64,000 bases of DNA from Paludibacter sp. GTDB lineage: Bacteria > Bacteroidota > Bacteroidia > Bacteroidales > Paludibacteraceae. The stretch covers positions 434,001-498,000 of the forward strand of contig NZ_WASO01000014.1 in NCBI RefSeq assembly GCF_009712605.1. Reading direction: 5' to 3'. Positions 31,916 through 42,737 of the stretch are shown piece after piece; the stretch's first letter is position 1, and each line of letters starts with the position of its first letter. The notes under the pieces are model-generated. The model did no database searches and was not told where the DNA came from. It saw nothing but the letters and a program-made list of their open reading frames with translations. A program made the position numbers and the translations under genes.

Positions 31916-32827
31916 TTAAGCCTCTAAAGCTCCGATTATATCATAAATAGAAGAATACCCATGTCTGTCAAGATACTCATTTATACCTTCAACAACTTTC
32001 ACGCTGATAGCCGGGTCTATAAAATTTGCTGTACCTATTTGAATGGCAGTTGCTCCGGCAAGAAAAAATTCAATTGCATCTGCCGCATTCATGATTCCCC
32101 CCAAGCCTATTACTGGTATTTTAACTGTCTTTGCAACCTGCCATACCATCCGCAATGCTACCGGCTTGACACAAGGCCCGGATAAGCCTCCTGTTATCGT
32201 TGAAAGATATGGTTTTCTGGTTTCGGCATCGATCGCCATTCCTAATAATGTATTTATTAATGATACAGAATCAGCACCTTCGTCTTCAACGGCCTGAGCA
32301 ATAGATACTATATCTGTCACATTAGGCGATAATTTCACAATCAGGGTCTTGGAATAGGCTTTACGAACAGCACGAACGACTTCTGCCGCACCGGCACAAC
32401 TTACACCGAAAGTCATGCCGCCTTGTTTCACGTTAGGACACGATATATTTAGCTCAATTGCCGGTATTTTATCCAGTTCATTAACCTTCTCTGCTGTCGC
32501 CACGTAGTCTTCAATGGTAGACCCGGAAACATTAACCATTATATTGGTATCGTAATCTTTTATGCGAGGATAAATAGACGAAATGAAATAGTCAACACCT
32601 TTATTTTGCAGTCCTACAGCATTTAACATGCCGGATGGTGTCTCCGCCATACGTGGATAAGCATTGCCTTCTCTATGTCGAATAGTAGTTCCTTTGGTAA
32701 AAATACCACCTATTCGATTTAGATCCATGAAATCGGTATACTCTTCTCCGAAACCGAAAGTTCCGGATGCTGTTGTTACCGGATTTTTGAACTCTAATTC
32801 ACCTATTCTTATCTTCAAATCTGCCAT
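31916..32827 (-). CDS. pyrD: Dihydroorotate dehydrogenase, class 1B catalytic subunit
   Basis: Oxidises dihydroorotate to orotate in pyrimidine synthesis. It is the FMN subunit of the NAD-linked type. The active-site base is Cys130 in [11 protein letters not shown], as in class 1 enzymes. FMN-binding blocks include [21 protein letters not shown] and [15 protein letters not shown]. The length is 303 residues. The gene overlaps pyrK by 13 bp, and the two subunits form a complex that passes electrons to NAD. This suits an anaerobe because no quinone or oxygen is needed. Confidence 0.97.
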
Positions 32828-33588
32828 GATAATTCTTTTGTGTTAAATACCGGACCTTCAGAACAAACGCACTTATGACCGCTTTGAGTCTGTGTTACGC
32901 AACATAAGCAAGCGCCAAAACCACAAGCCATTTTATTTTCAAGCGAAGCCTCGCATTCAATAGCATTATTCTGAGCAAATCTGGCAACAGCCTGCATCAT
33001 AGGCGTCGGCCCACATGTGTATATTTTATCAATATGTTGCTGTAATATAGAATGTTGCGTAACAAAACCCTTTTCTCCAGCACTTCCATCTTCGGTAGTT
33101 ATGAAAACATCACCAAATTGCTTAAAATCATCTATTTGCATCAAACCGTCAGCAGATCTGGCACCTAACAAAAACATCGGATTACAGCCTTGCTGCTTTA
33201 ATAAAGATCCCATGTATAATAATGGAGCTATTCCGACTCCACCTCCCACTAATAATAAACGGGATTGAGTACTTTGTGGCATTGTAAAGGAATTTCCTAA
33301 TGGAAGAAGCATGTTTACTACATCTCCTGTCTTATATTCAGACATCTTTCGGGTTCCTTCTCCTACTTTTTGAACCAATAACCACAGTTCATTCCTCTGT
33401 TTATCAACGAAATTAACGGATATAGGACGTCTAAGGAATACTCCGGGAGCATTATCTACCCTGACCTGCACGAACTGACCTGGCAGCATCTCTGGAAGTT
33501 TCTCTTTATGAGTAAATTTCAATAAAAAATGGCTGCTTCCCAGCGGAATATTCGCGGAAACAACCATATCTAACGAGCATTTTTTCAT
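32815..33588 (-). CDS. pyrK: Dihydroorotate dehydrogenase electron-transfer subunit
   Basis: FAD and iron-sulfur partner of PyrD that hands electrons to NAD. The N-terminal FAD-binding domain contains RRPISV and the next domain [15 protein letters not shown] for NAD. Near the C-terminus the [2Fe-2S] ligands fit C222-x4-C227-x2-C230-x11-C242 ([10 protein letters not shown] and CVCSEGPVF). The length is 257 residues. It is first in pyrK-pyrD-capA and overlaps pyrD by 13 bp, consistent with translational coupling. A TAATTTTG box lies about 18 bp upstream. Confidence 0.96.
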
Positions 33589-33605
33589 ATGTAATAATTT
33601 GACTG

Positions 33606-33613
33606 CAAAATTA
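33606..33613 (-). promoter_or_regulatory. -7 promoter box of pyrK-pyrD
   Basis: TAATTTTG on the minus strand matches TAnnTTTG, about 18 bp before the pyrK ATG. Confidence 0.4.
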
Positions 33614-33652
33614 CGCAGTTATCTCTTAACTTACAAGAAATGTCGATAACTT

Positions 33653-34108
33653 CTACTGCTTGTCTTGAAGTGCATTTGGAAGAAACTCTTCAAAAGTCAT
33701 ATCGGAATAGTATACGGTTATCTTTTTAACGGTTTTCTCTTTCACAACAGCGCATTTTTCTATTACTTTTTCTGATTCTACCTGCTTCACTTCTTTTTCC
33801 TGCAAATTTTTATCAACCGTTTTTTGCTCATAAATAGCAGTATTACTGGATATTTCAGGCTTAATATCAAATAATGAACCCTGTCGAGACGGCAATTCTT
33901 CGCGATACATTGCTCCAACGCCTAAAATAAGCCAATCTGGATTGATTGTCGGAAAGGCATTCAGGATTTTCTGAGCAACTTCCAGGCTTGGTTTATTACG
34001 TCCATTCAAGATATGAGAGACAACCGATGGTTGTGTTCCAATCATAATTGCAAATCGAGTAGGAGATATTTGCTCCACTTCCATCAATTTTGATATGCGA
34101 TCTTTCAT
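33653..34108 (-). CDS. Small XRE-family transcriptional regulator
   Basis: Helix-turn-helix DNA-binding protein of the XRE (lambda CI-like) class, 151 residues. The HTH covers about 5-60, with the recognition region TQPSVVSHILNGRNKPSLEVAQKI. The middle (70-130) is polar, rich in Glu, Lys and Val, and probably flexible. The end KITVYYSDMTFEEFLP (about 127-142) may form a small effector or dimer motif. No peptidase or kinase partner is fused. Downstream pyrK is separate with its own promoter. Upstream lies an 899-bp noncoding region with several TACAnnTGTA dyads, some between a strong -7 box and the start codon, which is what autoregulation would look like. Confidence 0.85.
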   Translation of the reverse strand: MKDRISKLMEVEQISPTRFAIMIGTQPSVVSHILNGRNKPSLEVAQKILNAFPTINPDWLILGVGAMYREELPSRQGSLFDIKPEISSNTAIYEQKTVDKNLQEKEVKQVESEKVIEKCAVVKEKTVKKITVYYSDMTFEEFLPNALQDKQ

Positions 34109-34210
34109 AAGACTTCAACATTAAGGATTTCTACCAATAATAGGGCTAAATGCGCCATCAAGTGCTTTGATAATTGTAAAAACAAGTCTCTGGCACTCGA
34201 TTTTAAACAC

Positions 34211-34287
34211 TACAAATGTAAACAATATTCTTCACAAATGAAATACATTACAATTGTACATTATATCCATTTGTAAATACATTTGTA
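34211..34287. promoter_or_regulatory. Operator cluster 1 (TACAnnTGTA dyads)
   Basis: Sites: TACAAATGTA (34211-34220), CACAAATGAA (34233-34242, weak), TACAATTGTA (34249-34258, perfect palindrome), TCCATTTGTA (34266-34275, weak) and TACATTTGTA (34278-34287). They lie between the -7 box at 34305-34312 and the XRE start at 34108, so a bound repressor would block its own gene. The binding protein is inferred, not shown. Confidence 0.5.
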
Positions 34288-34304
34288 AAATGTAGCGTAT
34301 ATAA

Positions 34305-34312
34305 CAAAGATA
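34305..34312 (-). promoter_or_regulatory. -7 promoter box of the XRE gene
   Basis: TATCTTTG on the minus strand, the best form of the -7 box. The predicted leader is about 190 nt and carries the first dyad cluster. Two TACATTTG matches inside the dyads could be alternative boxes. Confidence 0.45.
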
Positions 34313-34647
34313 GATCAAAAAGCAGATTAATCAGCACTTTACGGAGGTATAAATAAGATTTACATATTAATTATTTAGTTTATGTGAACAGCTTTATAAT
34401 GCTTATTAATAGCTATTTAATTACATATATGCATACTTTATCAGTAACTTAAGTCTAAAACAGTGATAATACTATCTTTTTATTAATTATAAAATTGAAT
34501 AAATACTGATAATTCATTAGAATATAGTTTATTATATAAATAGTTTATACGCTTGTTAATTGCTTGTAGAAGTCTCACTTCACATATGGAAATTCACATC
34601 AAAATATCTTGATTAACCTTATCATAAAACAATCCGGTTTGCTGCTT

Positions 34648-34695
34648 TACAATTGTAATATACTTGTTTGTTTTCAAATGTAAATTACATATGTA
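34648..34695. promoter_or_regulatory. Operator cluster 2 (TACAnnTGTA dyads)
   Basis: Sites: TACAATTGTA (34648-34657, perfect), TTCAAATGTA (34673-34682, weak) and TACATATGTA (34686-34695, perfect). The two strong sites are 38 bp apart, the same as the first and third sites of cluster 1. A weak plus-strand promoter (TTTG 34638-34641, TATACTTG 34659-34666) overlaps the cluster. Confidence 0.45.
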
Positions 34696-34717
34696 AATAT
34701 CGGCATAAACACAAGCA

Positions 34718-34779
34718 AAGTGAAATAGTAAACTTTCGAGAGAATGTTGGAAAAATATTCGATCAGGACGATTTCACTT
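34718..34779 (+). ncRNA. Possible structured RNA downstream of operator cluster 2
   Basis: Arms AAGTGAAAT (34718-34726) and ATTTCACTT (34771-34779) enclose a second pairing GAAT (34742-34745) / ATTC (34757-34760). A weak promoter overlaps the dyads just upstream. Whether this is an RNA gene, a leader or chance folding is open. Confidence 0.25.
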
Positions 34780-34955
34780 ATTTCGTTTGGATGGTCTAAC
34801 TATTCTGCTTTTTGCAAATGAATATATTCTCTTATTTTTCAATTGATTAATTCATATTTGATCGCATTTAGAGCAACTGAGAGTGCGATATTTACTAACG
34901 GATAAGAAATTTGTATGGTTTTATGCAACTCTGACGAAATTATGTCTCATTCCAA

Positions 34956-34987
34956 TTTGCATAGGAGATTATAAAACTCTACTTTTG
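34956..34987 (+). promoter_or_regulatory. Promoter of rlmD
   Basis: TTTG (34956-34959), 20-nt spacer, TACTTTTG (34980-34987): a full Bacteroidetes promoter. Transcription near 34994 gives a leader of only about 14 nt. Confidence 0.7.
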
Positions 34988-35007
34988 CACTCTAAATTGA
35001 TTTTATT

Positions 35008-41357: not shown

Positions 41358-42737
41358 ATGGATTTTAGAGACGAAAGAAGGCAACGTCCCGAATATAACT
41401 CGGGAGATAATGCCAGCCGTGATGGTAACAAAAGAGAAGGACATTCGCGTCCGCGTATTTCAAGAAACCCGGGCAACGGACCTGTATCATCTTCGAACTT
41501 TGACAGGCCCAGAGAAAATGACAATCAACAACAACGCCCGTACAACCGCAATTACAACAATCAGGAAGGTGGCTATCAACAGCGTCCTTCTTATAACCGT
41601 GACAATAATGGCGGTGGTTACAACCGTAACTACAACCGTCCAAACTCTGACCGTCCTTATAACAGAGATTATAACAACAATAATAATAATAATAATAATA
41701 ATAATAATCGTTCATATAATCAGAATAGCGACGGGCAACAACAATCATACAATCGCTACAACAGAGACGGGAATTCATACCAACCTCGTCAACAGCAGTA
41801 TAGAGATGGTAATGACCAACAACGCAGACCATCGTACAGAGAAGGAGGCGATAACTACCAACGTAACAATTACAGAGATGGAGGTCAACGCCCCTACTCC
41901 AACCGTCCATTTAACAACCGTGGAGGTGGATACGGACAACGCCCGGGCGGATACAACAATCCCCGCCAAGGTAGTTTTTCTCATGGCAAAATGTATGAGC
42001 AACCAGCAGTTGATCCGAACGAACCAATCCGCTTAAACAAATATCTTGCTAATGCGGGTATTTGCTCGCGCCGCGAAGCTGATGAATACATACAAGCCGG
42101 TGTTGTAAGCGTTAACGGTAAAGTTGTTCAGGAACTTGGAGTTAAAGTTATGCCAACGGACAAAATTATGTTCCATGAACAACCGGTTCAAACAGAGCGT
42201 AAGATTTACATTCTGCTTAACAAACCAAAAGATTTCGTGACAACTGTAGACGATCCAAAAGAACGTAATACAGTTCTTGATTTGGTGAGAAATGCATGCA
42301 AAGAAAGAATTTATCCGGTTGGCCGTTTGGACAGAAGCACAACCGGTGTTTTACTCCTTACCAATGACGGAGATTTGGCATCCAAGCTCACTCATCCGAA
42401 ATATAATAAAAAGAAAATCTATCACGTATATCTGGACAAACCACTGACAAAGGCTGACATGGAGCAAATTGTAAGTGGAATTGAACTGGAAGACGGAGAA
42501 ATCCACGCTGATGAAGTTCATTATGTAAATGATGATGACAGACAACAAGTTGGGATCGAAATACACTCTGGTCGAAACCGTATTGTTCGTCGTATTTTTG
42601 ATCATTTAGGTTACCGTGTAAAACGTCTGGATCGTGTCTTCTTCGCCGGTTTGACAAAGAAAAATCTTCCCCGCGGCAAATGGCGCTTTCTCAGTCAAAA
42701 TGAGGTCAACATGCTGAAAATGGGAGCTTTTGAATAA
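41358..42737 (+). CDS. rluB: Pseudouridine synthase (RluB/RsuA type) with long disordered N-terminus
   Basis: Converts uridine to pseudouridine in rRNA. The C-terminal half is a normal enzyme: an S4 RNA-binding domain starts IRLNKYLANAGICSRREADEY (about 224), and the catalytic block GRLDRSTTG has Asp325. The first about 215 residues are unusual: a low-complexity stretch rich in Asn, Arg, Tyr, Gly and Gln with many YN/RD/RG units, including 12 consecutive Asn encoded by AAC/AAT. It resembles RGG-type RNA-binding or phase-separating tails. Such extensions occur in Bacteroidetes, but length and composition vary. The M48 gene follows 18 bp later. Confidence 0.92.
   Translation: MDFRDERRQRPEYNSGDNASRDGNKREGHSRPRISRNPGNGPVSSSNFDRPRENDNQQQRPYNRNYNNQEGGYQQRPSYNRDNNGGGYNRNYNRPNSDRPYNRDYNNNNNNNNNNNNRSYNQNSDGQQQSYNRYNRDGNSYQPRQQQYRDGNDQQRRPSYREGGDNYQRNNYRDGGQRPYSNRPFNNRGGGYGQRPGGYNNPRQGSFSHGKMYEQPAVDPNEPIRLNKYLANAGICSRREADEYIQAGVVSVNGKVVQELGVKVMPTDKIMFHEQPVQTERKIYILLNKPKDFVTTVDDPKERNTVLDLVRNACKERIYPVGRLDRSTTGVLLLTNDGDLASKLTHPKYNKKKIYHVYLDKPLTKADMEQIVSGIELEDGEIHADEVHYVNDDDRQQVGIEIHSGRNRIVRRIFDHLGYRVKRLDRVFFAGLTKKNLPRGKWRFLSQNEVNMLKMGAFE
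41673..41708 (+). repeat. Trinucleotide (AAT/AAC) microsatellite inside rluB
   Basis: Twelve Asn codons in a row, two AAC and then ten AAT. Unit size is three, so length changes would keep the frame and only alter the Asn tract. Confidence 0.9.

Follow-up and report, generated by a model that had tools for sequence, protein, structure and literature searches.

Predicted TACAnnTGTA operators on the promoter of an XRE-family regulator gene suggest autoregulation in Bacteroidia

A non-coding region of 899 bp (34109 to 35007) separates the start codon of a small XRE-family regulator gene (34108, - strand) from the GTG start codon of rlmD (35008, + strand). The window, by which we mean the entire 64-kb stretch of DNA that was analysed, contains five exact copies of the dyad TACAnnTGTA, and all five are located in this gap. 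This poses the question which protein recognises these sites and which promoter they serve. A preliminary description of the locus proposed an autoregulating, CI-like repressor that also controls a second transcript toward rlmD. Our analysis makes it highly probable that the gap serves to control the XRE gene beside it. This gene would encode an autorepressor with overlapping operator and promoter, and the DNA may, at roughly even odds, loop between two operator clusters.

The proximal cluster comprises the predicted operators O1 (TACATTTGTA, read on the - strand; 34211 to 34220), O2 (TACAATTGTA; 34249 to 34258, 38 bp from O1) and O3 (TACATTTGTA; 34278 to 34287, 67 bp from O1), together with a predicted weak operator that has one mismatch (TCCATTTGTA; 34266 to 34275). 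A further site with two mismatches can be read near 34235. In the distal cluster, the predicted operators D1 (TACAATTGTA; 34648 to 34657) and D2 (TACATATGTA; 34686 to 34695) are again spaced by 38 bp from start to start and flank a second predicted weak site with one mismatch (TTCAAATGTA; 34673 to 34682). Three of the five exact sites are perfect 10-bp palindromes, with TACAATTGTA occurring twice and TACATATGTA once. The clusters are separated by an A+T-rich spacer (34288 to 34647), in which the GC content falls to 14% in 100-bp windows; its sequence is poorly conserved and its length fairly constant. Our motif scan reproduced the extent of the gap, the number and coordinates of the dyads and the two 38-bp spacings that had been described before.

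The genome-wide statements made here rest on pattern searches in the 3.70-Mb genome. Single sites mean little, since exact TACAnnTGTA occurs 71 times and the reversed motif 55 times. Pairs of sites with a spacer of 15-40 bp, however, are found three times in the genome, all of them in this gap, and the reversed control yields none. The site array is far beyond chance. The preliminary description had set its reading against the prospect that such dyads are equally common elsewhere; in this genome, close pairs occur only here.

The gene next to the array (33653 to 34108, - strand) encodes a protein of 151 aa with an HTH_3 domain, a disordered linker and a C-terminal beta-hairpin motif (KKITVYYSDMTFEEF). 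The HTH_3 match (PF01381) scores 31.5 bits, above the curated cut-off of 23. In the AlphaFold2 model, which shows five helices, the HTH_3 domain spans residues 2-62, followed by a disordered segment (85-114) and a hairpin (130-142). Both the score and the five-helix fold place the protein among the HTH_3 (Cro/C1-type, XRE) regulators. No named NCBIfam family matched the protein above its cut-off, and the domain search returned HTH families only, without the S24 domain (PF00717). In line with this, the modelled C-terminal part consists of the linker and the short hairpin and contains no S24 peptidase. The earlier label CI-like is therefore apt for the HTH fold, but not for the remainder of the protein, which lacks the S24 domain of CI.

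Members of the family measure about 150 aa, and the hairpin motif (consensus KxIxKIxVYYSDNTFEEF) is kept together with the HTH in 29 orthologs. Among 61 related genomes, 51 contain a relative of the protein; a wider sample of 296 genomes across the phylum gave 64, the weakest of which are probably just distant XRE proteins. One ortholog (genome G025, L025 1501-1956) has a single in-frame TAG in the aligned stretch, probably its genuine stop codon, close to where the match ends. Our literature search found nothing on this family or its motif in Bacteroidota. As far as the literature was searched, the family is uncharacterised, and it is spread across the class Bacteroidia.

Whether the sites belong to the XRE gene can be read from its orthologs. 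Across 57 of them, the upstream 700 bp contain 146 exact sites in total, compared with 2.5 in dinucleotide shuffles and 6 for the reversed motif, and just 4 exact sites were counted in 81 kb of DNA downstream at these loci. Exact upstream sites are missing from 5 of the 57 orthologs of this first set and from 4 of 20 in a held-out set; the other 16 held-out orthologs carry them (37 sites in total; reversed motif, 3). XRE proteins outside the family, most of them encoded in these genomes, had no site in about 850 bp of upstream DNA each (0 of 20). The sites also persist in orthologs at loci of 51-56% GC. A site pair is present in 23 of the 61 related genomes and lies beside this XRE gene in 17 of these 23, and reversed-motif control pairs occur in 2 of the 61. 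Adjacent genes change between orthologs while the TACAnnTGTA sites remain, so the predicted operators stay with the XRE gene and not with its neighbour. These upstream sequences couple the motif, as a predicted operator, to this XRE family throughout the class and not to other XRE proteins. The preliminary description had suggested asking whether the dyads track the XRE family; that they do, and are absent upstream of the other XRE genes, lends strong support to its proposal of autoregulation by the adjoining protein.

Beyond the XRE gene, counts of TTACAnnTGTAA in four genomes (9, 8, 5 and 2, vs 6, 5, 5 and 7 for the reversed motif) revealed no visible genome-wide regulon, and few TTG-N20-TACANTTGTA sites exist apart from the XRE promoter. 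As a separate observation, genome G039 contains a tight TACAnnTGTA triple between divergent genes (L105 1501-1542), with no detectable XRE relative adjoining.

The proximal cluster indicates which promoter the sites may control. In most orthologs, the site nearest to the start codon is TACATTTGTA or a close variant, facing the XRE gene. TACATTTGTA contains TAnnTTTG, the Bacteroidota -7 box, which was mapped via transcript 5' ends in Flavobacterium psychrophilum (PMC9723704) and has also been reported for Bacteroides (PMC7366714). The XRE gene of the window has its -7 box (TACATTTG; 34220 to 34213, - strand) inside the site at 34211, i.e. in O1, which is invariant in 8 of 8 genus members. A TTG is found exactly 20 bp upstream of the -7 box in 25 of 55 orthologs and at 19 bp in 6 more, and most other spacings are represented by a few. 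A second TTG peak, at a spacer of 14 bp (12 of 55), reflects an TTTGTGAA-like half-site. The corresponding element of the window (TTTGTGAA on the - strand; 34233 to 34243), conserved and degenerate, lies between O1 and O2, overlaps the expected -33 region and is kept across the genus. The -33 element of the window itself is degenerate (TTT, not TTG), and the nearest relatives carry TTG-N20 at this position. Because the proximal site reads TAnnTTTG with a TTG at 20 bp, we place the operator on the core promoter. The predicted operator thus appears superposed on the gene's own promoter and conserved with the gene. Two further positions are occupied recurrently across families, one between -36 and -39 and the other between -66 and -68, counted from the promoter site. 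The TATCTTTG box that had been noted beyond the proximal cluster is present (34312 to 34305, - strand), but shows no conservation among the nearest relatives.

The distal cluster was analysed in 30 orthologs from the taxonomic order to which the window belongs. Exact sites are concentrated in the proximal zone (27 vs 0.59 expected) and in the zone from -600 to -360 relative to the promoter site (23 vs 0.55), with a valley between them (1 vs 0.43); close kinship among several of these orthologs means that the counts are not independent events. The centre of the distal cluster lies at -454 (sd 46 bp; 25 orthologs) whichever gene adjoins, and the next gene boundary at -798 (sd 249 bp) in either orientation. 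The distal cluster is retained even where the upstream gene is unrelated and points toward XRE. Gap length in this order ranges from 394 to 1863 bp and correlates with the distal distance (r = -0.66, longer gaps having farther distal sites), a correlation strongly influenced by a few gaps of extreme length in either direction. The two predicted operator clusters thus lie at a constrained distance, as in looping regulators. No obvious helical phasing was seen in the proximal-to-distal distances, which neither supports nor excludes a loop of 450 bp.

The neighbouring genes appear to have promoters of their own. A promoter for rlmD, TTG-N20-TACTTTTG (34957-34987, + strand), lies about 290 bp from the distal cluster and overlaps no TACAnnTGTA site; a similar promoter is found in the same place in relatives that have rlmD upstream (L017-L019, L021 and L022). 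Other upstream neighbours, identified by eye from the sequence, are mfd, holA-like and mazG-like genes, among others. On the downstream side, the order XRE-pyrK-pyrD (31916-34108 in the window) is kept in 20 orthologs, and gyrA or unrelated genes follow elsewhere; XRE loci outside this set have no pyr genes. The XRE-pyrK gap holds a predicted pyrK promoter, TTG-N20-TAATTTTG (33606-33636, - strand), in the window and its three nearest relatives. Hence, pyrK and pyrD need not depend on the XRE promoter, although they may be partly co-transcribed with XRE. Elsewhere in the window, a pseudouridine-synthase-like protein (41358-42737) has an extended N-terminal region of low complexity in which Asn, Arg, Gly and Tyr abound, including a run of 12 Asn.

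The distal cluster could alternatively be the operator of a second, divergent promoter, directed toward rlmD in the window and likewise controlled by the XRE protein. Genomes of two groups (f30 and f29; upstream regions L059-L084) illustrate how this might look. Here, XRE is divergent from a gene that by eye resembles an M14 zinc-carboxypeptidase and that is preceded by operator-like sites. In f30, another family of the class, the distal sites lie 200 to 257 bp upstream of the XRE promoter site, directly before this divergent gene (384 aa), and one of them contains TACTTTTG facing it. The distal sites of f30 may simply be operators of the divergent gene, and the upstream sequences make this M14-peptidase-like gene a likely second target there. 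The window offers a comparable clue, as O3 can be read as TTG-N21-TACATTTG facing rlmD, but this reading is not kept in relatives. Against a second promoter in the window's order also speaks that the distal cluster keeps its distance when an unrelated upstream gene faces XRE, that a separate promoter serves rlmD at a distance of 290 bp, and that no conserved transcript, ORF or terminator is present. We consider this explanation rather unlikely. The second transcript toward rlmD that had been postulated earlier finds no support: rlmD has a canonical promoter to itself, and the DNA between and beyond the clusters showed no terminator, no conserved sequence, no ORF and no RNA family. The real target of regulation might instead be a small RNA or a small protein that is encoded in this DNA, and it would account for a long gap (394-1863 bp) that is kept without detectable content. 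Yet the gap contains no Rfam match and no small ORF that is kept open in relatives, no terminator was found between or beyond the clusters, conservation of the spacer does not exceed background in the comparison with relatives, and folding z-scores are inconsistent between them. We regard such a hidden gene as distinctly improbable.

Other explanations question the binder or the nature of the region. The published cop/bla box TACANNTGTA (PMC7253601) is identical to the core found here, and four proteins in the genome match PF03965, so that a winged-helix repressor of the BlaI/MecI/CopY type might occupy the sites. However, all four are encoded outside the window and lack an exact site nearby, the sites stay with the XRE gene as its neighbourhood changes, and the flanks differ (TTACAnnTGTAA here vs the refined RNYKACANNTGTMRNY). 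Binding by such a repressor is very unlikely. The A+T-rich, dyad-flanked region could also be a chromosome element, such as an origin or anchoring site, that is bound by the XRE protein, in keeping with a GC content as low as 14% between the clusters and their constrained distance. The odds of this are slimmer still, since the loci of relatives lie in unrelated gene neighbourhoods and the f30 region measures just about 310 bp; DnaA boxes are not enriched and none occurs in the gap, and no lasting GC-skew switch is present in the window, on which grounds we rejected an origin or chromosome element. That TACAnnTGTA simply built up by chance in very A+T-rich DNA is refuted by the shuffle, reversed-motif and paralog controls and by the persistence of the sites at loci of 51-56% GC, which leaves this explanation a negligible probability.

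We thus return to the XRE gene's own control region and propose the following model. The XRE protein, presumably a dimer formed via its HTH domain, would bind the TACAnnTGTA dyads. O1 would sit exactly on the -7 box of a sigma-ABfr-type promoter, TTG-N20-TACATTTG, and its occupancy should block RNA polymerase, resulting in negative autoregulation. The sites at about -37 and -67 would lie on either side of the -33 region and could allow cooperative binding. The distal cluster, about 450 bp upstream, would act as an auxiliary operator, with a higher-order XRE complex connecting it to the proximal cluster. The individual parts of this model differ in strength. The motif, its clustering, the coupling to the family, the overlap with the predicted -7 box and the constrained distal distance can be read directly from the DNA. 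The XRE protein is the probable binder, and repression the probable outcome of occupying the -7 box. To DNA looping between the proximal and distal clusters we assign roughly even chances. More tentatively, and with a little less confidence than an even bet would express, the family might represent a class-wide autorepressor with a repression loop of about 450 bp that is maintained across an order, and whose only evident target is its own gene and which forms a self-contained homeostatic circuit across gene neighbourhoods.

These findings assign a motif and an operator layout, and the prediction that operator and promoter overlap, to a nameless regulator that seems to be kept across a whole class. 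A motif that doubles as the -7 box makes for a compact and testable repressor-promoter pair for Bacteroidota, and the distal cluster provides a natural test of long-range looping in this phylum. The protein is most probably an autoregulated XRE repressor, which is a kind already known; the novelty lies in the family, in its motif and its occurrence throughout the class, in the -7 box serving as an operator and in the near-constant distal distance.

Several known regulators share parts of this arrangement. Like the Bacteroidetes non-canonical LexA, a transcriptional repressor of the same phylum, the XRE protein has a CI-type N-terminal HTH (PMC8565304). LexA, however, carries S24 and recognises CTAA-N5-TTAG, GGA-N5-TCC or divergent motifs, TTAC-N5-GTAA among them (PMC8565304), whereas the XRE protein lacks S24 and its motif has a two-base spacer. 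HigA is among the best structural matches of the XRE protein, and HigA operators overlap their promoter. Yet the operator of V. cholerae HigA2 has another sequence, TGTACGC-N5-GCGTACA (PMC11006873), the match to TIGR02607 (HigA) is weak (16.3 bits vs a cut-off of 47.7), and pyrK, pyrD and rlmD rather than a toxin gene lie beside XRE; by this model and by the lack of an adjacent HigB, the XRE protein is not a HigA antitoxin. With CopY/CopR and BlaI/MecI, the array shares the identical 10-bp core TACANNTGTA (PMC7253601). Those repressors are PF03965 proteins, for which the XRE protein gives no match, and here the copper or beta-lactam context is absent and the flanking bases differ.

Closer parallels are found among phage and plasmid regulators. 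The repressors of 434 and P22 (c2) are among the structural matches of the XRE protein, which shares the five-helix HTH with lambda CI and related phage repressors, and in lambda, too, several operators cover the repressor's own promoter region. Lambda also loops DNA over 2.3 kb (PMC4207663). In contrast to CI, the XRE protein has no S24 peptidase or C-terminal oligomerisation domain, and most of its orthologs adjoin housekeeping rather than phage genes, with no opposing lytic gene. RcoLS20 of the Bacillus subtilis plasmid pLS20 stems from another phylum and a mobile element, and governs conjugation genes through overlapping divergent promoters. Its loop spans 75 bp, compared with about 450 bp here, and it was shown to be a tetramer, whereas the higher-order XRE complex in our model is a proposed one. 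Nevertheless, RcoLS20 is likewise an Xre-family autoregulator with two operator clusters beside its own promoter, and its looping is backed by phasing mutants (PMC4207663), which provides a precedent for the loop proposed here.
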